A DNA stretch of 64,000 bases. Origin: an uncultured Collinsella sp. Lineage in GTDB: Bacteria > Actinomycetota > Coriobacteriia > Coriobacteriales > Coriobacteriaceae. The stretch spans positions 1 to 64,000 of the forward strand of contig CANRSF010000014.1 in assembly GCA_947642445.1 (NCBI GenBank), written 5' to 3'. A program made the translations under genes and the position numbers. This document shows, piece after piece, positions 3,220-27,842 of this stretch. Every line of letters starts with the position of its first letter. The stretch's first letter is position 1. The notes under the pieces are model-generated. The model was not told where the DNA came from. It saw nothing but the letters and a program-made list of their open reading frames with translations, and ran no database searches.

Positions 3220-3498
3220 AAGGCCCAGATGAGCGTCTATTTCAACGAGGCGCTCTCGAAAGCCGCGGTAAGAGACGATGGCTACCTGAGCGCCTGGCTC
3301 TCCAAAGGCAATGACGGCACGTGGATGGTGGACGACACGAGCCTTCGGGAGACCCTGACGTACCTGGTCGGCGCCGCGTAAGGCATGCCAGGCAAGGCGA
3401 ATGGGCAGATACCCGAGGGGATTGTCCCGTCGCCGCCCGTCTTGTCCCAGACGACGAGGTCCGCCAGACCCGTGGCCATGACGGCGACGGAGCGCCCA

Positions 3499-4029
3499 TC
3501 ACCCCAGAAGGTCACCCAGCACGGCCGCACCGGTTTTGATGATCCCGAAGACGAAGAACGGTAGAAGCATCGCGAGCAGTGCGTCCATGCGCGGATTGAT
3601 CGTCTCCGGGATCTTCGGCCCGCCGAAGAACAGCGTCCCGTCGGGCGCGAGGTAGTCGATGAGCGGGTACTCCGGCCCACAGCTGTACAAATCATCCCCC
3701 CAAGTCGCCCAACTCGGCTGTAAGGTGTCCCGCAGGACAACTTCCTCACCCGTCTGCTCGCACACGTATACCGGCGTGCCCAAGAACAGCGAGTCGTCAT
3801 GCTCCGAATCGCCCGTTGTCGCGCAGTGCCACTGCCTCGGGTTCTCCTCGCGCCAGCGGAGGGTCCCGTCCTCGTCACGCTCGAGTCTTTGGAAGACGTA
3901 ACGGAGCCGCGTGTAACCCCGGGCCCGGAGCTTGCGGTCGAGCAGAAAACCTTTGATGTCTCCCACGAGCACGACCAGACAGAGAGCTGTGAGAAAGACG
4001 CTTGTGACGAGTCCCATCAGCATGTCCAC
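3499..4029 (-). CDS. Hypothetical membrane protein with N- and C-terminal TM segments
   Basis: 176-aa ORF with hydrophobic ends. Confidence 0.5.
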   Translation of the reverse strand: MDMLMGLVTSVFLTALCLVVLVGDIKGFLLDRKLRARGYTRLRYVFQRLERDEDGTLRWREENPRQWHCATTGDSEHDDSLFLGTPVYVCEQTGEEVVLRDTLQPSWATWGDDLYSCGPEYPLIDYLAPDGTLFFGGPKIPETINPRMDALLAMLLPFFVFGIIKTGAAVLGDLLG

Positions 4030-4345
4030 GGCAGCCCCAACCTCTCGGACGAGATCATTTCACATTAATCATAGAGGACGTGAGCCACGGGCGAAAAGAG
4101 CGCCGGTAAGCGTTTACTGAACGCTTACCGGAACGCGCGAGCGTGCGGCGCAGACGGGTGGCGATGCCACGCCACGCTTTACTCCACATTAACCATCTAG
4201 AAAAACGCCATACGGAGACCGCTGACACGCCCATTGGGCTCGATTCGAGTTTCACGGACCCAGAAACGACCCCGTTTCCCTCGGGGAAAAATTTCGCGCG
4301 TCTACTCACTCGGGATGCTGTCAAGGCGGCGTCAATGCGTGCGAC

Positions 4346-5029
4346 CTACACCTTCTCGCTTTTCGAGGCTTCGTCTGCAGGACCATCGGAATCGATACGG
4401 AATCGATCGGCATACCATTCATCCGAAGCAATCACCTTATGGAGCATCTGGAGATGCAGGTCGACATAGTGGCAGAACGCCTTGCCGCATTCCACGAGAG
4501 GCGCATTGTTTCTCTCGTTGGGCTCGGCTCCAAAATTAAACTCGACCTCATAGCCCTCCCCAGGCACACCCATGCTCGGCAGAATATCAGTGGAGAAGTG
4601 AACGAATCCAGACGTCACCTTGTATACATCTTTTACCTTTGGATCGTACTTCTCGAGTAAGTCTTGAAGTCTTCTATCGAACATCTTCTCACCCGAAAAA
4701 TCTTTCAGCTTGTTCACAGGCACACCTTGAAACACCTGCTTGAGAAAGTCATCCTGGTCTTCGGCGGCGAATAACGCGAATGTCCGCAGGCAGACTCCAA
4801 CCTGTGCGCGGAGAAGCTGGGCGACGCAAACAAGATTCCTCGACTCGAGCATGGAGATGAATCCGTCTATCAGTCTCATCGCATACTCAGAGGAGGATGC
4901 CAGACATAGGTCCCATTGGGTAAAGTCGCCGTTCATGAAGGGAATCACTGCATTGCGCTCGGCGACTCTCAAGGCACTCAGGCTTTGTTCTATTTTCCCA
5001 GCTTCTTGTTTGAACTGTTCGCTATCCAA
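4346..5029 (-). CDS. Hypothetical soluble protein
   Basis: 227-aa ORF with normal composition; no recognised domain. Confidence 0.55.
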   Translation of the reverse strand: MDSEQFKQEAGKIEQSLSALRVAERNAVIPFMNGDFTQWDLCLASSSEYAMRLIDGFISMLESRNLVCVAQLLRAQVGVCLRTFALFAAEDQDDFLKQVFQGVPVNKLKDFSGEKMFDRRLQDLLEKYDPKVKDVYKVTSGFVHFSTDILPSMGVPGEGYEVEFNFGAEPNERNNAPLVECGKAFCHYVDLHLQMLHKVIASDEWYADRFRIDSDGPADEASKSEKV

Positions 5030-8211: not shown

Positions 8212-8627
8212 GGCGAGCTCCTTCGAAAGGAGGCCGCGCAGGGGTTAGGCACGCGAGCTGTGGAATCAAGACGAGAAGATACTGAAGCGACGCGGCACCC
8301 TAGCGCGCGACCGAGCGTACAAAATGGTCGTTTGGGCACCCTTAGTGGGCATCGCTAGTTCTTCATCTAACCTAACCTAACTCGAAGCGTCGCATGGCAA
8401 AGGCTCCGCTGATTGAATGATGCTCAGATTATAGCATGCGTATTGAATTGTAGCGCGCGTATTGAATATAGGTTTGAACCACGAACAAGCTGGGATAATG
8501 CATCATCACCCGCAAACCACCTGAAATTCTGCCAGCGAGTAATTCGAGGAAACGAATGTATCGACTGTGGGCAAGTATGATTAACTAAAGCAACACAAGG
8601 AGACGAATTGCAACACCAACAAGCGAA

Positions 8628-9237: not shown

Positions 9238-10185
9238 TTGAGCAACTTTAACTCCTATCTAAAAGAGGAAATGGGGCTTTCAATCACCACCCATGAATGG
9301 GAAGGCGCCAGCCATCTCCCACTATATCTTGCCAAAGCGGCAAGATATCACCTGTGCATCTGCAACGGGGTCGACTTTATCGCCGCGGAGATAGAGCGGG
9401 GATCTTCCCTTCCCGAGCTCAAAAGAATCTCTGGCCATATTTCGGACAGAACGAGCCTTCCAGTTGTGCTCGTTGCGCAGATTGATGCGAGACAGCGCAA
9501 GGCCCTCGTATCGCAGGGGATTCCATTCGTCGTCCCAGGCAGACAGGCATTTCTCCCCATGCTGGGTTTTATTGCAAACGCCAGACGAGATTTATCCCCC
9601 CTTTCCAAAGTGATGGCTCCCAGCACCCAAGCTGCCCTGGTCGCCTTGATGGCAAACCCCGACCTCCGGACATCCGAGAAGCTGAGGGAAATGACAGGCA
9701 TGCCGTCGTCCAGCGTTTCACGGGCTCTCGACGATCTTTCCCGCAGAGGCCTTATCAACAAATCCAAGCAGGCGCGCCAGGTAATCATCGAGTGCAATGG
9801 CTCCCAAAACCAACTGATAAAAAGGGCAAAGGACTGCCTGCAAAACCCCGTGGCGCGTGTCACGTATACAAGAAGAAGTAAAGACACAGACTTTCTCCCG
9901 CTTGCAGGAGAAAGCGCCCTTTCCGAACGCAGCTTGCTTACTCCTCCCATAATTGAATGTCATGCATTATTAAAAAAGACCTTTAAGGCGAATAAGTTTG
10001 AAGAGATCCAGCTGGGAGAGTTACCGAATGAAGAGACGATTCGGCTCCAAATCTGGACATACGATCCACTCGTCGCCGGAAGGGGCGAAATTGACGACGT
10101 GTCTCTTGCGCTGACCCTCATCGATACAGAAGATGAACGCGTTATCGGCCAGCTAAACGCACTGTTTAAGGAGGAACTGTGGTAG
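9238..10185 (+). CDS. HTH-containing regulator/antitoxin of an AbiE-like (type IV TA) module
   Basis: Central winged-HTH 'LRTSEKLREMTGMPSSSVSRALDDLSRRGLINKSKQ'; stop codon overlaps the start of a nucleotidyltransferase-toxin-like remnant. TTG start assumed. Confidence 0.5.
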   Translation: MSNFNSYLKEEMGLSITTHEWEGASHLPLYLAKAARYHLCICNGVDFIAAEIERGSSLPELKRISGHISDRTSLPVVLVAQIDARQRKALVSQGIPFVVPGRQAFLPMLGFIANARRDLSPLSKVMAPSTQAALVALMANPDLRTSEKLREMTGMPSSSVSRALDDLSRRGLINKSKQARQVIIECNGSQNQLIKRAKDCLQNPVARVTYTRRSKDTDFLPLAGESALSERSLLTPPIIECHALLKKTFKANKFEEIQLGELPNEETIRLQIWTYDPLVAGRGEIDDVSLALTLIDTEDERVIGQLNALFKEELW

Positions 10186-10413
10186 CAAGCGACGTTTATG
10201 GACTGGATCGTTTCTCAGAGTATATGGAAGGTCTGGAAGACTGCTAAGCTCTTCTCAATGGACACATCGTCCGTGCTGCCCGAATCAATACAGACGGATA
10301 TGGCAGAGTTCTGCAAGACAGTCCAGATCCAGGGCGTCCCGTTAAAACAAATGGGAATTCCCCTGACCCTTGACGATGCCCTCGACTTACTTCGCCATGT
10401 GTACAGCCTGTAG
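10179..10413 (+). pseudogene. Internally deleted AbiEii-like nucleotidyltransferase toxin remnant
   Basis: GTG start overlapping the antitoxin stop: VVASDVYGLDRFSEYMEGLEDC*, then after a frame change a C-terminus-like piece '...IPLTLDDALDLLRHVYSL*'. Confidence 0.45.
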
Positions 10414-10439
10414 CAGAGCATACCGATAGAACACAGGCC

Positions 10440-11040
10440 AAGGCCATGATCATGGGGTTCAATCATGACGATAAGTCCGACGGTTCTGGCAAGGACGGCA
10501 TCACATTCATCTTCACCGATGACGTCGCCAAGAAGAACATGTTCGAGAAGGCCGACCTCGATAGCCTATTCTAGGAAATTAAGGACGATGGCTCTGCCAA
10601 CATAAGCTGGGAGAATACCTCCTTGCGCTCTTGGATCAGCGACTCTTTCTCGAATGGGCTCCCTTCGGACCTGAGCGAGCAGATTGTCTCCGTGGACAAG
10701 GCGGACGAATACTGGCTATATGAGTTATTGCGCATATCTGCTGCAAGAAGACTCTCAATACCAGCTATTCGATGACGTTGGCTTAACGGAAGACACTCCA
10801 AATAGCATCCTTGGGACATACGATTCGCAAGGCGGGAGCGGTTGGTGGCTCCGGTCTTGGGGAACTTATGGCGATAGGTTCACGGGGAAAGTCAACCACA
10901 TGCTAAACCCCTGCTTTAGGCGCATTTCTTCCCATGGAAATGACGAAGCTGCTTCCTATAGAAGCGATTACCAACCGTACTCGCACAGAACTTATGGCGA
11001 CGGCGAGCCATTTGTCGGCGTTAGGCCCGCACATTATTAG
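10440..11040 (+). pseudogene. Remnant of a DUF6273-like domain protein
   Basis: Pieces in different frames: 'GFNHDDKSDGSGKDGITFIF', 'WENTSLRSWISDSFSNGLPSDLSEQIVSVDK', 'GGSGWWLRSWGTYG...GVRPAHY'. Confidence 0.5.
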
Positions 11041-11621
11041 ATGTCGCCAGCAGAGTCGAGGTCTGCCTCAATCTTGACACGGCGCCTTTTCGCCGAGAAG
11101 TACGCTGCGCACAGGGTGGCAAATGTGACAACGGCGACTACCAGGCCGAAGTACGCGCCCGTAGCCAAGTTCGCCACCCAAAAGACACTTTCGAGCGGCA
11201 CAATCTGTGTCTCCGCAACACAGTACATCACCGCAATGACAAGTGCGCTCGTGACCCCGCTGATACCGCAGACGAGCAGGAAGTATCCAACAGGAAGACG
11301 CTCGGTTTGCCCAAAACGGTTGGTATCGACATAGCCCTTTCGCGTTTGCAGCACCGCACAAATCAGCATCACGATAACGAGCCACGCATACATGGCAGCC
11401 TCAACCGGTGTTACAGAGAGGTGCGGCATTTCGATGGCGTTGCTGTGAACCCACGCAACCTGTCGAGCTATAATCTGATAGAAAAGAATCATCAGCATGC
11501 CAAACGAAAGCAGCACGAAGCCAATCTTGTAAATCTTCGCGTTCTCCGCTTCCAAGCGCTCATCCTTTGGGCCTGCATACTCACGCCACTTTTGCACGAT
11601 TTTTAGATCTTCAAATTTCAT
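11037..11621 (-). CDS. Hypothetical 4-TM membrane protein
   Basis: 194-aa ORF with four hydrophobic segments, directly downstream of an XRE regulator on the same strand. Confidence 0.65.
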   Translation of the reverse strand: MKFEDLKIVQKWREYAGPKDERLEAENAKIYKIGFVLLSFGMLMILFYQIIARQVAWVHSNAIEMPHLSVTPVEAAMYAWLVIVMLICAVLQTRKGYVDTNRFGQTERLPVGYFLLVCGISGVTSALVIAVMYCVAETQIVPLESVFWVANLATGAYFGLVVAVVTFATLCAAYFSAKRRRVKIEADLDSAGDI

Positions 11622-18078: not shown

Positions 18079-19374
18079 CTATAGACAAAATGCCGCATAA
18101 AGTGGAACAGACATCAGCCCATCATTCATTCCGAAGGGCTTAGTCGATAGCCTGATTCGGCGCACGCCCGGATGGGTCTTTTTAAGTGAGGACAGGCTTC
18201 GAGATCTTGTGTTCTCTCCCGCCTTGACTTCAATCGCAGACAAGCATCCCTGCTTCTCTACTACAAAGTCGATTTCCGCACGATTATCTCGCGCCCAATA
18301 ATGCAGCGGATAGCCCATGGCTGAAAGCTGTTGGGCAACGTAGTTTTCGGTAAGTGCACCCATGAATGTGCCGCCGATACCGGAAAGAATATCGGCGCGT
18401 TGAGCACCGGCCTTGGAGACGAGCAGCCCTGTATCCGCCTGATAGATTTTAAAAGCAGAAGGGTTAACGAAGGCCTCTAAAGGGCTTTCGATCTGCCCGA
18501 CTAGGCTGCAGCGCGCCACCGTACCCGACAATACAAGCCAGTCGAGAGCATCTCCAAAGAGAGACGCATTGCCCCCCGCTCGCACTACCTTGTATTGAAA
18601 TTTACGATTCTCTTTGGCAAGCTGCTGTGGAATGGAATCGAAGCACGCACGCGTCTTTGCGCTCAAGCGCTCATCAGCATATTTATTAGTGTCGGCGGAG
18701 TATCCGTCGAGAATAATCCGATGCTTTTCGGCCACATCAATGATTGACTGATCATCGATGTACGTTTGGACCGCCTCGGGCATTCCGCCAACAACAAGAT
18801 ACTGCCGATAGAGCCCAAGCGCCTTTTCATGAAGGCTTGGCGCAAGAGGACCCATAAACTCGAATGATGAGCGTATCTCGTCGACCAGCTGATCGTGCCC
18901 CATCGCCCAGAGAAACTCCTCGAAATCGAGTGGAGTCATCTCAATCAAGTCGGTCTTTCCGACGGGGAACGAATACGACTGATGGTTAATGGCAACCCCC
19001 AGAAGCGACCCAGCAGCCGCAATGTAATACTCGGGAGCATCTTCGCAAAAGTATTTAAGGGAAGTGAGCGCTTCCTCGCATGCCTGGATCTCGTCAATGA
19101 ACAGTAAGGTTTTGCCAGGCACGATACGCTGTCCCGTACGAGCCTCGATCGCGCGTACGATCGAATGAGGGTCAAGACCGCCCGAAAAATCCGCTCGCGC
19201 CGACCGGTCGTTCTCAAGATTAACGTAGACAACCGATTCGAAAAGATCCTGAGCGTACGTTCTGAGCAGATAGGTCTTGCCACACTGGCGCACGCCTTTG
19301 ACCAGCAAAGGTTTTCTATCAGCCCTGTCTCGCCATTCCCTAAGGAGCTCGTCTGCCTTGCGACGCATACGCAA
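18079..19374 (-). CDS. ATP-binding protein (AAA ATPase + DUF4143)
   Basis: 'KPLLVKGVRQCGKTYLLRTYA', 'LLFIDEIQACEEALTSLKYF', C-term 'HYWARDNRAEIDFVVEKQGCLSAIEVKAG'. Confidence 0.88.
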   Translation of the reverse strand: MRMRRKADELLREWRDRADRKPLLVKGVRQCGKTYLLRTYAQDLFESVVYVNLENDRSARADFSGGLDPHSIVRAIEARTGQRIVPGKTLLFIDEIQACEEALTSLKYFCEDAPEYYIAAAGSLLGVAINHQSYSFPVGKTDLIEMTPLDFEEFLWAMGHDQLVDEIRSSFEFMGPLAPSLHEKALGLYRQYLVVGGMPEAVQTYIDDQSIIDVAEKHRIILDGYSADTNKYADERLSAKTRACFDSIPQQLAKENRKFQYKVVRAGGNASLFGDALDWLVLSGTVARCSLVGQIESPLEAFVNPSAFKIYQADTGLLVSKAGAQRADILSGIGGTFMGALTENYVAQQLSAMGYPLHYWARDNRAEIDFVVEKQGCLSAIEVKAGENTRSRSLSSLKKTHPGVRRIRLSTKPFGMNDGLMSVPLYAAFCL

Positions 19375-19624: not shown

Positions 19625-19785
19625 CAAAATGGATGCAAACGGTGGCTGACGGAATTGTCCGCGGGAGCATCAACGCATGGCAATCAGCACTCCTCTTGGT
19701 AAGGGCAGCAAGCATTTCCACCAACACCGATTGCCATGCGATCTTCTTGTTCATAGCTGCGCCGCCTGCCTGAAATGACCCGCAG

Positions 19786-20346
19786 TCAAGATGAACTGCA
19801 GGAATCATGGCGAGTCGTAACCGCTCGCATACCCCCTTCGGAATAGGCGCTGAGCAGCTCCTGAGCGTGGGCAAACTCGGGCCCTCGTCTCCAACCGAGC
19901 AGGCGGTTGACCGCGAGATTTCCCTGGACGTTGTGGACGAAGAGCAGATAGGCGTCCTCGCGCGAAAGCCCAGTCTCCTCCATGATCGAGGGAACCATCT
20001 GCTCGGCGCCGCGCTCGACGACGCGCTGTGCCACCCGGGCGTACGCGTCGTCATCCGAGTAGAGCAGATAATAGTCATCGTTTGCCGGCGGACGCTGGCA
20101 GAGGGCGCCCGCCTCCGTTCCCTCGAGCGGCGGCACCGCCGCCAAGGCCTCGTCGATAAGCGCGTCGAGCAGGGCGAACTTGTCCTCGTAGTGCAGATAG
20201 AACGTGCCACGGTTGATATCGGCGCGGCGGCAGATATCCGCTACCGTCATCTTCGCGAAGCCGACCTCGGCCAGCAGCGCGAAGAACGCCTCCCGTATGA
20301 CCGAGAGTGTATAGCGTCGGCGACGATCGATCTTCCCCGCTTCCAT
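19786..20346 (-). CDS. TetR-family transcriptional regulator (copy 1)
   Basis: 'IREAFFALLAEVGFAKMTVADICRRADINRGTFYLHYEDKFALLDAL'. Confidence 0.88.
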   Translation of the reverse strand: MEAGKIDRRRRYTLSVIREAFFALLAEVGFAKMTVADICRRADINRGTFYLHYEDKFALLDALIDEALAAVPPLEGTEAGALCQRPPANDDYYLLYSDDDAYARVAQRVVERGAEQMVPSIMEETGLSREDAYLLFVHNVQGNLAVNRLLGWRRGPEFAHAQELLSAYSEGGMRAVTTRHDSCSSS

Positions 20347-20489
20347 TACCCCTCCAATTGCAACGCTCGACAATGCCCGGCAAACGCTCGTTTATCGACA
20401 GCAGGCCGAAGCTGTTCATTGCTCTTAAGCAAATCGACATGGATACTTTTTATAGACACGTGTTTATAATAGCTGAAAGAAGGTATCCA

Positions 20490-21455
20490 GTGACCCTGTA
20501 CGAGCAGCTCGTTATCGAGCTCACCAACCAATCGTTTTCCCTTCAGGCCGCCTACCGCAGCGGCGGCACGCCCTATGAGCTGAGTGACCGCGAGCCCGAG
20601 CCCTACGACCAGCAAATCGAGGACTTCGCCCGCATGATCGAGGAAGCCGATTGCGTGCTGGCGGGCGGGGCCTCCGGGCTCTCCGCGGCGGGCGGCGGCG
20701 ACTTCTACTACGAGGACAACGCGACCTATCGCAAGCATTTCGGCAAATTCGCCGAGCGTTACGGTTTCAAGGGCGCTTTCGAGGGGTCGTTCTACCGCTG
20801 GCCCACCGCCGAGGCGCGCTGGGGATACCTCGCCACCTTCCTCGACACCACGCTCAACGCCCCGCTGCGCAAGCCCTACAGGGACCTCGACGCCATTCTC
20901 GCCGAGAAGGATTTCTTCGTGCTCACCACCAACCAGGACACGCAGTTTGTGAAGCTCTATCCCTGGGAGAAAGTGGCAGAGATCCAAGGCGACCACCGCT
21001 TCTTTCAGTGCTCCCGCTGTTGCACCGACGCGGTGTGGGATGCGGTCGAGCCGGTCTCCAACATGGTAGAGGCCATGGGAGACGGCCTTGAGGTTCCGAC
21101 AGAGCTCGTGCCGCGCTGCCCGCACTGCGGGGCAGAGGCGTTCCCCTGGGTTCGCGGCTACGGCAACTTCCTGCAGGGCGAACTCTACGAGGAGCAGTAC
21201 CGCAAGGTGTCCGACTGGCTCGACGCGCACGCACGGCAGAGGATCCTCTTCCTCGAGCTGGGTGTGGGCCGCATGACGCCCGCGTTTATCCAGGAGCCGT
21301 TCTGGGCCCTCACGGCGCAGTTACCGCAGGCCAGCTACATCGCCGTAAACAACAAGACGCAGTTTCTCCCCCGCGCGATCGAGGATCGGGGGCTCGCCGT
21401 TCGCGCCGACATCGCCGACGTGCTTGCCGACGTGCGCAAGACGCTGGGGAGGTAG
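20490..21455 (+). CDS. SIR2-family protein resembling class-M sirtuin (SirTM), paralog 1
   Basis: GTG start with upstream gaaagaagg; 'VLAGGASGLSAAGG', 'FVLTTNQDTQFVKLYPWEKVAEIQGDHRFFQC', C-x2-C zinc ribbon 'CPHC', 'LFLELGVGRMTP'. Confidence 0.75.
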   Translation: MTLYEQLVIELTNQSFSLQAAYRSGGTPYELSDREPEPYDQQIEDFARMIEEADCVLAGGASGLSAAGGGDFYYEDNATYRKHFGKFAERYGFKGAFEGSFYRWPTAEARWGYLATFLDTTLNAPLRKPYRDLDAILAEKDFFVLTTNQDTQFVKLYPWEKVAEIQGDHRFFQCSRCCTDAVWDAVEPVSNMVEAMGDGLEVPTELVPRCPHCGAEAFPWVRGYGNFLQGELYEEQYRKVSDWLDAHARQRILFLELGVGRMTPAFIQEPFWALTAQLPQASYIAVNNKTQFLPRAIEDRGLAVRADIADVLADVRKTLGR

Positions 21456-21458
21456 CGC

Positions 21459-22159
21459 ATGGAGACGGCGAAAGCAGTTCGCATAGGCAGGGCGCTAGCC
21501 GAAGCGGATCTTGTCATCATCGGCGCTAGCAACGGACTGGACATGGCAGAGGGGCTCAACCTTTTCTGCGCCGATGCTCATTTCCAAGAGGCGTACGGGG
21601 ACCTCGCCCAGGCAGACGGCATCGGCTGCATACTGCAGGGGCTTGCCTCCCCGGATGCCAGCGTGCGACGCCGATGGGCCGAGCGGTTTCATCAAAAGGA
21701 ATATCTCGAATATGAGCCCAGCCCGCTCATGAACGAGCTGCGGCGTCTTACAGAGCACGCTGACACCTTCGTGATCACGTGCAATATCGACGGGCACTTC
21801 GTACGCGCAGGGTTCAACGAGAACCGCGTGCTCGAGACGGAGGGGGGGGCATACGCACGTCGATCGACGAGCGGCGTCTCGCCCATCCAGACGCCCTCGC
21901 CACGGCCCAGCTCGAGGAGCTCGAGCGCCTTGTGCAAGCCCATCGCAACGGCAGGGTCGCCATCCTCGAACTTGGCGTGGGACTGCGCAACGGCATCATA
22001 AAGCACATGCTCGCCCAGATCGCGAACGTCTGCGAGCACGCCACCTACATCGTGTTCAACTACAGCCAGGCCATGGCGCCCGACGCCTCGTGCGAGACGA
22101 TTCTCGTTGACGGCGATATGACCCCGGCTTTCGAGGAGATTGCCCAATGCCGTCTCTAG
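21459..22159 (+). pseudogene. SIR2-family paralog 2, disrupted or phase-off at a G8 homopolymer
   Basis: ORF 21459-22001 homologous to about 'FNENRVLETEGG'; homology resumes in the 21779-22159 frame ('RVAILELGVGLRNGIIKHML'). Frame switch at 21842-21849 (8 G). Confidence 0.65.
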
Positions 22160-22995
22160 AGAGGGAAGCGTATAGGCTTCGAAGCCTTATCGACGATGCC
22201 GACGCCATCATCGTCGGCATCGGCTCGGGCATGTCAAGCGCCGCCGGGTTCAACCATTACAACCGCGCAGGCATGGCGCGCGCCGGAATGACGGACTGGC
22301 AGCAAGCCTTTGGCTTCAAGAGCCTTTTCGACGGCTTTTACCACCTCTACCCCAGCCTCGAGCAGCAATGGGCCTACTACGCGCGATACATCGACTTCAT
22401 GCTGCGCGAGCTGGCCTCGCAGCCCTATCTCGACCTACGGTCCCTCATCGGCCATAAGGACTACTTCATCCTGAGCACCAATGTAGACACCCAAGTCGAG
22501 AAGACGTTTCCCACCGAGAGGATCTGCAACTATCAGGGAAGCTTCGCGCACCTTCAGTGCAAGCAGCCATGCTGCGACGAGCTCTTCGATGCGAGCCCCT
22601 ACGTCGAGCGCATGCTCGCGGGCATGGCGGGGTTCGAGGTCCGCAGCGAGGATGTCCCCCGATGCCCGCATTGCGGCTGGCAGCTTGTGCCGTGGGTGCG
22701 CGACGACACGTTTCTGCAAGGTGCGGCATGGCGCGAGAGCCTCGGACGATACGAGCGCTTCGTGCGCGAGCGCAGCGATCGCCGCGTGCTGTTGCTGGAG
22801 CTCGGCGTGGGCGAGATGACCCCCGGCATCATCACGCTCCCGTTCTGGAGCATGACCGCGAAGCTGCCGGATGCGCACCTGCTGAGCGTAAACATCTCGG
22901 GCGGCTCGGCTCCGCTGCAGCTTGGAAGCAAGGCAGGGGCGATCCAGGCCGATTTGGGCGCCCTGCTCTCGGTGGCGCGGGCAGGTGGCGAGTAA
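22147..22995 (+). CDS. SIR2-family protein resembling class-M sirtuin, paralog 3
   Basis: 'AIIVGIGSGMSSAAGFNHY', 'FILSTNVDTQVEKTFPTERICNYQGSFAHLQC', 'CPHCGWQLVPWVRDDTFLQG', 'LLLELGVGEMTPGIITLPFW'. Confidence 0.78.
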   Translation: MPSLEREAYRLRSLIDDADAIIVGIGSGMSSAAGFNHYNRAGMARAGMTDWQQAFGFKSLFDGFYHLYPSLEQQWAYYARYIDFMLRELASQPYLDLRSLIGHKDYFILSTNVDTQVEKTFPTERICNYQGSFAHLQCKQPCCDELFDASPYVERMLAGMAGFEVRSEDVPRCPHCGWQLVPWVRDDTFLQGAAWRESLGRYERFVRERSDRRVLLLELGVGEMTPGIITLPFWSMTAKLPDAHLLSVNISGGSAPLQLGSKAGAIQADLGALLSVARAGGE

Positions 22996-23078
22996 CGCGG
23001 AGCGGTAGACGCGCAATGAGGTTTTAGCCGCAGCCTCCGAACGAGAGGGCTCGGAGGCTGGTATTCCTGAATCGCAGG

Positions 23079-23639
23079 TCACGATGGGTTATCGGAATCG
23101 CGAAGAGCGGATACCGCCAGTAAGCCCCCTTCGGAATAGGCGTTGAGCAGCTCCTGGGCATGGGCGAACTCGGGGCCTCGTCTCCAGCCGAGCAGGCGGT
23201 TGACGGCCAGATTGCCCTGGACGTTGTGGACGAAGAGCAGGAAAGCGTCTTCGCGTGAAAGCCCCGTTTTCTCCATGACCCAGGGAACCATCTGCTCCGC
23301 TCCGCGTTCTATGACGCGCTGGGCTACGCGAGCGTATGCGTCGCTGTCCGAATAAAGCAGGCGATAATCGTCGTCTGCCGGCGGACGCTGGCAAAGCGTT
23401 GCCGATTCAACCCCCTCAAGCGGGGGAGCCGCTGCCAATGCCTCGTCGATAAGCGCATCGAGCAGCGCGTACTTATCCTCGTAATGCAGATAGAACGTTC
23501 CCCGGTTGATCTCGGCGCGGCGGCAGATGTCCGCCACCGTCATCTTCGCGAAGCCGACCTCGGCCGGCAGCGCGAAGAACGCCTCCTGTATGACCGAGAG
23601 GGCGTAGCGCCGCCGGCGGTCGATCTTGGTTTCTCCCAT
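23079..23639 (-). CDS. TetR-family transcriptional regulator (copy 2)
   Basis: Nearly identical in sequence to the 19786-20346 product; same divergent arrangement. Confidence 0.85.
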   Translation of the reverse strand: MGETKIDRRRRYALSVIQEAFFALPAEVGFAKMTVADICRRAEINRGTFYLHYEDKYALLDALIDEALAAAPPLEGVESATLCQRPPADDDYRLLYSDSDAYARVAQRVIERGAEQMVPWVMEKTGLSREDAFLLFVHNVQGNLAVNRLLGWRRGPEFAHAQELLNAYSEGGLLAVSALRDSDNPS

Positions 23640-23782
23640 CGCCTCTCCAATCTGAGTCGTTTGACAATGTCCAGTAGCTGTTCGTTTATCGACAGGTGCA
23701 CGCGTTTGTTCATTGCCCCTGCGAAAATCAACAAGGATACTGTTTATAGACACCTGTTTTTTATAGCTGAAAGGGAGCACGG

Positions 23783-23983
23783 ATGACCCTGTGCGAGAAG
23801 CTCGGCATCGGGCTTGTCAGCCGATCGTTTTCCCATCGGGCCGTCTATCGAAACGGCGGCACGTCATACGATTTGAGCGATTGCGAGCCTGCTGCTTGCA
23901 AGCAAGATATCGAGGCTTTTGCCCGCAAGGTGGGGGAGGCTGATTGCGTGTTTACGGGAGAGGCAGGTAGGCAGGCGTTATGA
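23783..23983 (+). pseudogene. N-terminal remnant of SIR2-family paralog 1 (second copy)
   Basis: MTLCEKLGIGLVSRSFSHRAVYRNGGTSYDLSDCEPAACKQDIEAFARKVGEADCVFTG aligns with MTLYEQLVIELTNQSFSLQAAYRSGGTPYELSDREPEPYDQQIEDFARMIEEADCVLAG. Confidence 0.75.
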
Positions 23984-24669
23984 GCATCTGCATCAAAAAT
24001 CAGATTCAGAATATGAATATCGTCATCGGCTGCACGGTGGGGTGTCCATATTGCTATGCCCGTAACAATGTGAAACGTTGGCATATGATTGACGACTTCG
24101 CTGATCCTGCGTTCTTCCCGAGCAAGCTCAAGATGATGGAAAAGAAACGGCCGCAGAACTTTCTCCTTACCGGCATGAGCGATCTCTCCGGGTGGAAGCT
24201 GGAATGGCGAGACGAGGTATTTGCAAAGATCCATGAGAATCCACAGCATCAGTTCCTGTTCCTGACCAAGAGACCCGATTTGCTGGATTTAGATACCGAC
24301 CTGGAAAACGCATGGTTCGGCGTTACGGTGACGAGGAAAGCGGAGCTGTGGCGTATCGACGCCCTTCGGAAAAACGTCAAAGCAAATCACTTCTTCGTTA
24401 CTTTTGAGCCGCTATTCGACGATCCCGGTACGGTCGACCTTTCCGGAATCAACTGGATCGTCGTCGGTACCATGACCGGGGCGCAGAGCAGGAAGGTTCA
24501 TACGGAACCGGAGTGGGCATGGTCTTTGACGGACCAGGCGCACGCGCTTGGCATTCCAATGTTTATGAAGGAAGACCTCGTCTCTGTCATAGGGGACGAA
24601 AACATGATTCAGGAATTGCCGGAAGAATTCGAAAGAGTGCTGGAGGTGCAGAGAACATGGCGGAAGTGA
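23980..24669 (+). CDS. Radical SAM-like protein, first gene of a 'radical SAM mobile pair' (protein A-like)
   Basis: 'NIVIGCTVGCPYCYARNNVKRWHMI' (CxxxCxxC), 'WIVVGTMTGAQSR'. Confidence 0.75.
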   Translation: MSICIKNQIQNMNIVIGCTVGCPYCYARNNVKRWHMIDDFADPAFFPSKLKMMEKKRPQNFLLTGMSDLSGWKLEWRDEVFAKIHENPQHQFLFLTKRPDLLDLDTDLENAWFGVTVTRKAELWRIDALRKNVKANHFFVTFEPLFDDPGTVDLSGINWIVVGTMTGAQSRKVHTEPEWAWSLTDQAHALGIPMFMKEDLVSVIGDENMIQELPEEFERVLEVQRTWRK

Positions 24670-25565
24670 TCGATGGAATCCTCATCAATGAGGTGGAAGC
24701 AAAGAACATCATGACCAAGTCCAGCCTGCCGGTAGGCGGCTACTCGGTCAATCCCTATGTAGGCTGCACGCATGCCTGCAAGTATTGCTATGCCTCCTTT
24801 ATGAAGCGCTTTACCGGACACAAGGAGGAATGGGGCACCTTTCTTGATGTGAAGCATTGGCCGGAAATCAAGAATCCGAAGAAATACGCTGGACAGCGGG
24901 TGGTTATCGGTTCTGTGACGGATGGCTACAATCCACAGGAGGAGCGATTCGGGAATACCAGGAAACTCCTGGAGCAGCTGATTGGCAGCGATGCAGATAT
25001 TCTGATCTGCACAAAGTCCGATCTTGTGGTACGGGATATCGATCTGCTGAAGAGGCTTGGACGAGTGACCGTTTCATGGTCGATCAACACGCTGGATGAG
25101 AACTTCAAGAACGATATGGACTCCGCGTCGAGCATCGAGCGTCGTATCGCTGCTATGAAGCAGGTGTATGACGAAGGTATCCGTACGGTCTGCTTCGTGT
25201 CCCCGGTATTTCCCGGCATCACGGATTTTGAGATGATTTTTGAGCGAGTAAAAGATCGGTGCGATTTGTTTTGGCTCGAAAATCTCAATCTTCGGGGTGG
25301 TTTCAAAAAAGCGATCCTGGATTATATCGCCGAGAAACATCCCGATCTCGTACCGCTTTACGATGAGATCTATAACAAGCGCAACCGTAGCTATTTTGAA
25401 GCGCTTGAAGTAAAAGCCGAGGAAATGGCCAAGAAGTACGATTGCCCCTTTGTGGACAACGAAATGCCTTATGGCAGAGTCCCCCAGGGGCATCCGGTGA
25501 TCGTGGACTACTTCTATCACGAGGAAGTCCGAGGGTCGGATAATAGCGGAAAAAGAAATCGTTAA
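24657..25565 (+). CDS. Radical SAM protein, second gene of the pair (protein B-like / SPL family)
   Basis: 'YSVNPYVGCTHACKYCYASFMKRFTGH' (CxxxCxxC), 'VVIGSVTDGYNPQE'; overlaps the stop of the upstream gene. Confidence 0.8.
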   Translation: MAEVIDGILINEVEAKNIMTKSSLPVGGYSVNPYVGCTHACKYCYASFMKRFTGHKEEWGTFLDVKHWPEIKNPKKYAGQRVVIGSVTDGYNPQEERFGNTRKLLEQLIGSDADILICTKSDLVVRDIDLLKRLGRVTVSWSINTLDENFKNDMDSASSIERRIAAMKQVYDEGIRTVCFVSPVFPGITDFEMIFERVKDRCDLFWLENLNLRGGFKKAILDYIAEKHPDLVPLYDEIYNKRNRSYFEALEVKAEEMAKKYDCPFVDNEMPYGRVPQGHPVIVDYFYHEEVRGSDNSGKRNR

Positions 25566-25726
25566 ACGGAAACCGACGACGATTCGCTCGAGCGATTAGC
25601 GTCCACGCGTGGCTTCTGCCGATTGGCGCAACGGGCGACGGATTAAGGGATCGCTCGGGCGGATGATCCCGCTGCAGTACAGGCGGTCGCTCAATTTAGC
25701 GGCATGAGCGTTTTCGCACGGAAAAC

Positions 25727-26047
25727 CAGTATCTTGTACCGTGGGTGCGCGACGGCACGTTTCTGCAGGGTGCGACATGGCGCGAGAGCCTCGGACGATA
25801 CGAGCGCTTCGCGCACGAGCGCGGAGCTGGCCGCGTGCTGCTGCTGGAGCTTGGCGTGGGCGAGATGACCCCCGGCATCATCACGCTCCCGTTCTGGAGC
25901 ATGGCCGCAAAGCTGCCGGATGCGCATCTGTTGAGCGTAAACATCTCGGGCGACTCAGCCCCCTTGCAGCTCGGAAGCAAGGCGGAGGCAATCCAGGCCG
26001 ATTTGGGCGCACTGCTCTCGGCGGCGCGGGTGGGCGACGGTGCTTAA
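25727..26047 (+). pseudogene. C-terminal remnant of SIR2-family paralog 3 (second copy)
   Basis: 'VRDGTFLQGATWRESLGRYERFAHERGAGRVLLLELGVGEMTPGIITLPFWSMAAKLPDAHLLSVNISG' nearly matches 22690-22995. Confidence 0.8.
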
Positions 26048-26260
26048 GCCTCTTTGTTAGTCGCTTTGAGATAATCCTCGTCGTTCACAGGCTCCAACCA
26101 CTCGTTGGAGGTCTCCTCGCCCGGAACCTCCAGCGCGAGATGGGAGAACCAGCCGTCGGGCGCGGCTCCGTGTCAATGCTTCACCCCCGGGGCGATGTTG
26201 ACCACATCGCCCGGGCGCAGCTCCTGTGCCGGCTTTCCCCATTCCTGGTAAAACCCTCGA
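26048..26260 (-). pseudogene. Cupin-domain protein remnant with nonsense mutation
   Basis: Minus strand reads 'YQEWGKPAQELRPGDVVNIAPGVKH*HGAAPDGWFSHLALEVPGEETSNEWLEPVNDEDYLKATNKEA*'. Confidence 0.6.
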
Positions 26261-26440
26261 CCAGTCACAGCATGCCGGCAGCGAGGTCAATGCGCATTCG
26301 CTCATGCTACAATCCAACCACCAGAGATGAAAACACAGTCCCCGTCGGGTAGTCGTGGGCGTGCGGGAGTCCGCATCAGTAACCTGCCTCCTTGGTTGTC
26401 CCTTCTCTGCATGGTCATCTACATAAAGGAGGAACCAACC

Positions 26441-27791: not shown

Positions 27792-27842
27792 TAGTTATGG
27801 GGGTGTATCCTAAAGGAAATCAAATTTATACCCCCATAACTA
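27792..27842. repeat. 13-bp perfect inverted repeat, 25-nt spacer
   Basis: tagttatgggggt ... acccccataacta. Confidence 0.85.

Follow-up and report, generated by a model that had tools for sequence, protein, structure and literature searches.

The two radical SAM genes in a 64,000-nucleotide stretch of DNA from an uncultured Collinsella sp. (contig CANRSF010000014.1; the whole stretch is called the window here) are probably the immobilised descendant of a mobile three-gene cassette, MarR-A-B, and the recombinase of that cassette is probably the tyrosine integrase of an 11.6-kb mobilisable element. On a wider scale, the balance tips, somewhat less firmly, towards an integron-like cassette system in gut Firmicutes that would be driven in trans by this integrase and a Tn916-type excisionase. 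Cargo cassettes without recombinase genes share the attachment sites of the element, and the system may be the route by which the ‘radical SAM mobile pair’ entered several phyla. The cassette and its ends, the exchange of its neighbours, the ends shared with the element and the losses in Collinsella are all apparent from the comparison of genomes.

No paper on the radical SAM mobile pair or its mechanism was found in the open-access literature. The comparison defines the ends exactly and supplies a site as well as a candidate enzyme, which makes the mobility of the pair accessible to bench testing. The cassette appears to hop between gut and oral bacteria, with a stranded copy in the window. 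The same arrays carry aminoglycoside adenylyltransferase-like, GNAT and MATE genes as well as regulators, and the system could serve as a general route of gene exchange among gut commensals.

The Collinsella locus

The sequence-only reading had placed the two overlapping genes in the families annotated by NCBI as radical SAM mobile pair proteins A and B. This family assignment is right; both matches (Table 1) exceed the curated cut-offs (355 and 410 bits, respectively). The pair was further described as lying in a second, gutted TetR/SIR2 locus, between a TetR/SIR2 start and the end of SIR2 paralogue 3 (~100 codons). Alignment of the two loci bears this out, including the missing middle. Three repeat blocks align, namely 19785–20084 with 23078–23377 (80%), 20491–20671 with 23784–23964 (73%) and 22684–22983 with 25733–26032 (90%); the right breakpoint, formerly put at ~25727, moves to 25733. 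With a GC content of ~50.5% against 58.8% for the window, the pair is, as supposed, an import.

Table 1. Features of the two TetR/SIR2 loci in the window.
Feature	Position	Strand	Remarks
First TetR/SIR2 operon (TetR1, SIR2-1, SIR2-2, SIR2-3)	19786–22995		Form found in pair-free relatives
TetR2 (second TetR/SIR2 locus)	23079–23639	−	TetR_N PF00440; diverged from TetR1
Promoter region of captured unit	23735–23782	+	Keeps one half of a 20-bp palindrome; putative operator
SIR2 paralogue 1 start	23783–23983	+	66-aa ORF; first ~60 codons SIR2-like
Left junction zone	23951–23979	+	SIR2 homology ends at ~23951–23964; homology to foreign pairs starts at 23970–23980
Radical SAM mobile pair protein A	23980–24669	+	229 aa; TIGR04471, 410 bits; PF07505 DUF5131; CX3CX2C intact
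Radical SAM mobile pair protein B	24657–25565	+	TIGR04470, 598 bits; PF04055; CX3CX2C intact
Non-coding stretch	25566–25732		167 bases; entire stretch common to L003, L004, L006 and L011
SIR2 paralogue 3, last ~100 codons	25733–26047	+	90% to 22684–22983; joined by secondary deletion
Ancestral right flank of single TetR/SIR2 operon	26048–26268		Adjoins SIR2-3 in relatives G006 and G008

Gene B starts at the ATG at 24657 and overlaps gene A by 13 nt. The stop codon of the SIR2 start overlaps the ATG of gene A as ATGA, the same type of overlap as that between MarR and A in intact cassettes. The palindrome of which the captured unit keeps one half is complete in the first operon (20450–20469; TTATAGACACGTGTTTATAA).

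Two minor features of the region may be recorded here. SIR2 paralogue 2 (21459–22159) is frame-shifted and split into two frames near a G run at ~21843, for which sequencing error, pseudogene formation and slippage are candidate causes. An azaaromatic (yjdF) riboswitch (RF01764; 60.8 bits, gathering score 45) lies at 26317–26419, directly 5' of a DUF2992 (YjdF) gene; RF01764-like sequence also flanks the TetR-pair block of a Coriobacteriia metagenome-assembled genome (L040) on both sides (8408–8545 and 10979–11100), the second copy without the gene.

Origin and decay of the captured pair

The genome that contains the window is 2.02 Mb in size, and its pair-bearing relatives are Collinsella. 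Among 45 genomes of the genus, TetR2 and the pair occur, at 99% identity, only in this genome and two others (G019 and G040); since these share the same block of TetR2, SIR2 start and pair, an assembly artefact is excluded. In relatives that lack the pair (G006 and G008), the operon is single and reads TetR-SIR2-1-2-3; its right flank corresponds to window 26048–26268. Two further genomes (G043 and G018) retain operon fragments and no pair, so that decay of the operon does not require the pair.

The TetR gene, at first taken for a near-copy, is a diverged paralogue (dN 0.094 and dS 0.75 against TetR1). TetR2 stands closer to the TetR that adjoins the pair in L040 (86.6% identity) than to TetR1. 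The pair in L040 is located elsewhere, beside zinc-transporter-like genes (neighbours read by eye). There, only 14 SIR2 codons precede, in frame, what is left of the MarR end (about 20 bp); in the window, the SIR2 start is fused to A, perhaps with a few bases of the MarR end. At the other side of the pair, the first ~38 bp of the non-coding stretch are common to L040 and resemble the start of the tail found in long-form cassettes (see below). The sequence after B in L006 and L011 (also L003 and L004) runs ~60 bp past the point that corresponds to 25733; beyond this, L006 joins SIR2-3 at another point, and L011 joins a region with a GNAT-like gene. This extension indicates that the junction at 25733 is a later deletion. 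The two junctions had been regarded as a record of the acquisition; the right one is the product of this deletion and the left one is a fusion rather than an insertion scar. The window locus itself therefore cannot show how the pair was acquired, which intact copies elsewhere can.

One explanation would have the cassette inserting directly into the SIR2 operon, with later decay of its ends. This is compatible with the resemblance of the first ~12 bp after B to the long-form tail, and with the MarR remnant fused to SIR2 codon 14 in L040. Set against it are the dissimilar SIR2 break points (codon 14 in L040, ~60 in the window) and the kinship of TetR2 with the TetR of a unit that resides elsewhere; together these suggest that the TetR-pair block may have arrived ready-made. 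Direct insertion is accordingly the less favoured course, though one to be taken seriously. In the preferred reading, a related lineage gave rise to the TetR-pair block, which then entered the window lineage by recombination with the resident operon.

Whatever its path, the window copy is without MarR, the MarR promoter and either cassette end. Neither TTCNNG|TTTG end (the bar marks the point at which flanks switch) was found near the window pair; both are present in 20 other loci. The MarR family model TIGR04472 has no match in the window's genome or in three other genomes with the captured form (search of G000, G019, G040 and the genome of L040); control genomes also lack the family, and the model does recognise the MarR of an intact cassette (L036; 293 bits, cut-off 240). 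Comparison of the window pair with foreign copies gives dN/dS values of 0.05–0.19, which indicate that A and B are under strong purifying selection.

The intact cassette and its ends

A scan of one genome per species yielded 338 stretches encoding relatives of B, of which 80 were kept for comparison. These derive from Lachnospiraceae, Ruminococcus, Faecalibacterium, Treponema and others, and protein identity is mostly 87–95%. Carrier isolates include Blautia massiliensis GD8, Faecalibacterium prausnitzii and Roseburia inulinivorans. Most have a MarR gene of 143–144 aa 5' of A, with the same overlap as in the captured form, and the MarR promoter contains a palindrome with arms of 15–19 bp. This three-gene unit is already modelled by NCBI (TIGR04472, TIGR04471 and TIGR04470). 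The pair alone, as judged from these loci, is not the complete unit; the usual form has MarR in front and defined end sites.

All-against-all comparison of the loci places the left break in homology ~527–555 bp before A. The right break follows B after 0–11 bp in a short form and after 97–113 bp in a long form. In the 20 loci with both ends typed, the cassette closes on the right with the stop codon of B (CGCTAA) and opens on the left with TTTGGAGAATTG, both being almost constant. The length from site to site is 2,134–2,137 bp. Element and neighbour are separated at each end by a 6-bp spacer of variable sequence, for the most part TTCCAG or TTCAAG, next to TTTG. Across the same 20 loci, distinct neighbours number 17 on the left and 19 on the right; flanks switch precisely at TTCNNG|TTTG, and particular neighbour cassettes reappear in new pairings.

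This relatively uniform pattern has exceptions. A second form of the left end has its boundary at CGGAATTTACC (for example in L009, L012 and L013), and spacers and arms also vary; the left-end rule is only partly understood. Target-site duplication was considered as a source of the spacers and rejected, as the left and right spacers match in 7 of the 20 loci, compared with 5.7 after shuffling. The suggested search for empty sites did not deliver one: joined flanks were sought in 65 Blautia and 31 Faecalibacterium genomes, and only the separate halves were found, which instead revealed shuffling. Apart from a tRNA, Rfam detected no RNA in seven cassette loci, and nothing in the long-form tail came near a gathering score.

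Several further copies of the pair deserve mention. Pair cassettes occur in phage-like surroundings and IMG/VR viral contigs (L008, L013, L133 and L134), and in L008 and L013 an adjacent ORF was judged by eye to encode a phage tail protein. Eight viral contigs carry the pair; the exact left-end motif was not found in viral contigs. A diverged pair (66.8% DNA identity) is present on ~98-kb and other Bacteroides/Parabacteroides plasmids from many species (plasmid hits H4–H20). Gene A is internally deleted or without a start, and B intact, in L048 (4706–5080), L034 and L070; L073 and L075 have B and no detectable A.

Other cassettes sharing the same sites

MarR-A-B is not the only cargo of these sites. 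They also bound an HxlR cassette (957–960 bp) in several contexts, a 410–412-bp cassette with a gene for 115 aa, and further cassettes with GyrI-like, DUF1706, GNAT, peptidase S51 and aminoglycoside-adenylyltransferase-like genes. In many of these cassettes, 2 bp separate the stop codon from the site. Tabulated junctions place a single cassette beside many partners, with the swap point at TTCNNG|TTTG. The occurrence of the pattern is non-random, with 80 matches in 16 genomes against 4 for the reversed pattern. Within one locus (L012), two integrase-gene ends that are 93% identical are followed by MarR-A-B in one case and by the peptidase S51 cassette in the other, and the same right flank comes after each. 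Judged by these shared sites and exchanges, MarR-A-B is one of many mobile cassettes, arranged in integron-like arrays that lack an integron integrase.

The related integrase genes of L012 are arranged in tandem (3402–4421 and 9920–11524), the second near a tRNA; a different cassette follows each, and then the same flank.

The 11.6-kb element and a candidate recombinase

A motif-based search for recombinases right beside the cassettes at first gave no consistent neighbour. Most loci are without a serine recombinase or an IS200-type transposase next to them, which counts against such enzymes as the cassette movers; a Resolvase domain is present in 5 of 54 proteins encoded upstream of cassettes, and 1 of the 54 is IS200-like. 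Serine recombinases use a 2-bp core, and a variable 6-bp spacer is better suited to strand exchange by tyrosine recombinases. The involvement of serine or IS200-type enzymes is therefore improbable.

The first clue to another enzyme was a site 129 bp behind a tyrosine recombinase gene; the chance expectation for a site behind the integrase is 0.003 per 420 bp. Among integrases of the 98–100% identity subgroup, the distance from stop codon to site is exactly 132 bp in all but one complete copy; in the 86% subgroup it is 140 bp, with the site inverted. About half of the more distant integrase homologues have no site behind them, nor has one close copy (L244). The integrase gene belongs to an element of ~11.6 kb, with a constant left end at 27811–27813 (four comparisons, five copies) and its right end at the site; one copy is located at ~2944812–2956409 of G150:C4. 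The element encodes a MobA/MobL relaxase, a Tn916-type Xis, a tyrosine integrase (Phage_integrase), a two-component system and an ABC transporter, with integrase, excisionase and relaxase all inside the precise ends. On its left, the element adjoins methyltransferase and HxlR cassettes in G150 and G199; these cassettes are also seen beside MarR-A-B.

The tyrosine integrase of this element is the best candidate recombinase for the cassettes; that it acts on them is inferred from the shared ends and neighbours. It is present in 16 of 40 genomes, all of which were chosen as cassette carriers or relatives of carriers, and so some hosts may use another enzyme.

The same breaks bear on whether the pair could have spread solely by homologous recombination between similar flanks, the sites being ordinary conserved intergenic sequence. 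Some neighbours are indeed common to several loci, and recombination between TetR/SIR2 copies probably remodelled the window as well. However, the typed flanks are unrelated and break at one sequence, L012 carries different cargo at paralogous sites, and the integrase element breaks at this very sequence at both ends. This explanation is largely refuted and very improbable.

The favoured, integrase-driven scheme can be outlined as follows. An intact MarR-A-B unit of ~2,135 bp, with its own promoter and long palindromic operator, would recombine as a whole at sites with a 6-bp spacer that lie directly after host genes, adjoining other cassettes that share its ends. The integrase of the element, together with Xis, would act in trans, and the cassettes would circularise; neither an excised circle nor a recombination product came to light in the comparison. 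In Collinsella, a copy would have become attached to the TetR/SIR2 start and been stripped of both ends, MarR and the MarR promoter. The captured pair would then be read from the TetR/SIR2 leader by translational coupling, putatively under TetR control. Since it has no cassette ends, it could not move by the cassette route; the Collinsella copy may thus exemplify a cassette turned into a fixed part of a host regulon.

Comparison with known systems

The window copy resembles the NCBI radical SAM mobile pair system in family membership, gene order and gene overlap; unlike that system, it has a TetR/SIR2 start instead of MarR. Integrative mobilisable elements with Tn916-type Int/Xis and a MobA/MobL relaxase are matched by the 11.6-kb element, which has all three and precise ends; the difference is that the sites described here also bound many small, unrelated cassettes without recombinase genes. 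The pdif modules of Acinetobacter plasmids are small modules with tyrosine-recombinase-like sites and variable 6-bp centres, and would be similar in these respects, whereas the cassette arms are not known to be dif-like and the cassettes are chromosomal, in Firmicutes.

A further parallel is with integron gene cassettes and CALIN arrays. These, too, consist of non-autonomous cassettes in the same orientation, with stop codons that abut the site and cargo that is shuffled between genomes. In contrast, IntI is lacking here, the site is ~20–30 bp with a variable 6-bp spacer, and the cassettes may have their own promoter. The likeness raises the question of an unrecognised integron, in which attC-like hairpins would be the substrate of a true IntI-type integrase, the gut Firmicutes arrays being relics that no longer have the enzyme. 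The attC sites of integrons have R and L boxes and are recombined as a folded single strand; a check for such folding gave weak hairpins only (−1.5 to −6.8 kcal/mol). Besides the array structure, an imperfect inverted repeat (AAATTCC..GGAATTT) at cassette junctions and true IntI genes in two Treponema carriers would fit. However, matches to IntI (TIGR02249) are below the cut-off in the window's genome and in every gut Firmicutes carrier tested, and an element with a non-IntI integrase bears the same site at both ends. The sites are also far shorter than the attC sites of Treponema denticola, which measure 63–68 bp (PMC3607928). An unrecognised integron is thus unlikely, if slightly less so than movement by serine or IS200-type enzymes; true integron integrases could contribute to movement in a few oral Treponema carriers. 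In Treponema putidum (L019), the pair lies ~60 kb from a true integron integrase.

Proteins A and B

Alignments with 22 and 28 relatives show that the cysteines of the CX3CX2C motif are invariant in both proteins (C18, C22 and C25 in A; C36, C40 and C43 in B). Protein A matches the B component of the PADLOC candidate defence families PDC-M41 and PDC-M30 at ~100 bits each, probably through its DUF5131 domain. Protein B shows a relationship to two radical SAM families, PA0069 and Rv2578c, and a weak one to spore photoproduct lyase. The modelled structures are weak, with pLDDT values of 77.5 (A) and 66.4 (B); that of A gave no structural match at E below 0.001, and that of B retrieved nothing but generic radical SAM folds, which include spore photoproduct lyase. 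A sequence search of solved structures returned none for B and none credible for A.

The pair is linked to MarR, TetR, flavin-reductase-like or Rrf2/cupin-like neighbours (read by eye). An inducible two-enzyme stress module would fit this linkage, the purifying selection and the fixed coupling. It might be guessed that A and B act together in a repair or modification reaction induced by stress or xenobiotics; nucleic acids as the target of such repair or modification are a tentative suggestion, with the odds against it.

Elsewhere in the window, positions 18079–19374 encode a DUF4143/AAA_14 ATPase that matches the PADLOC candidate PDC-S01 (531 bits).
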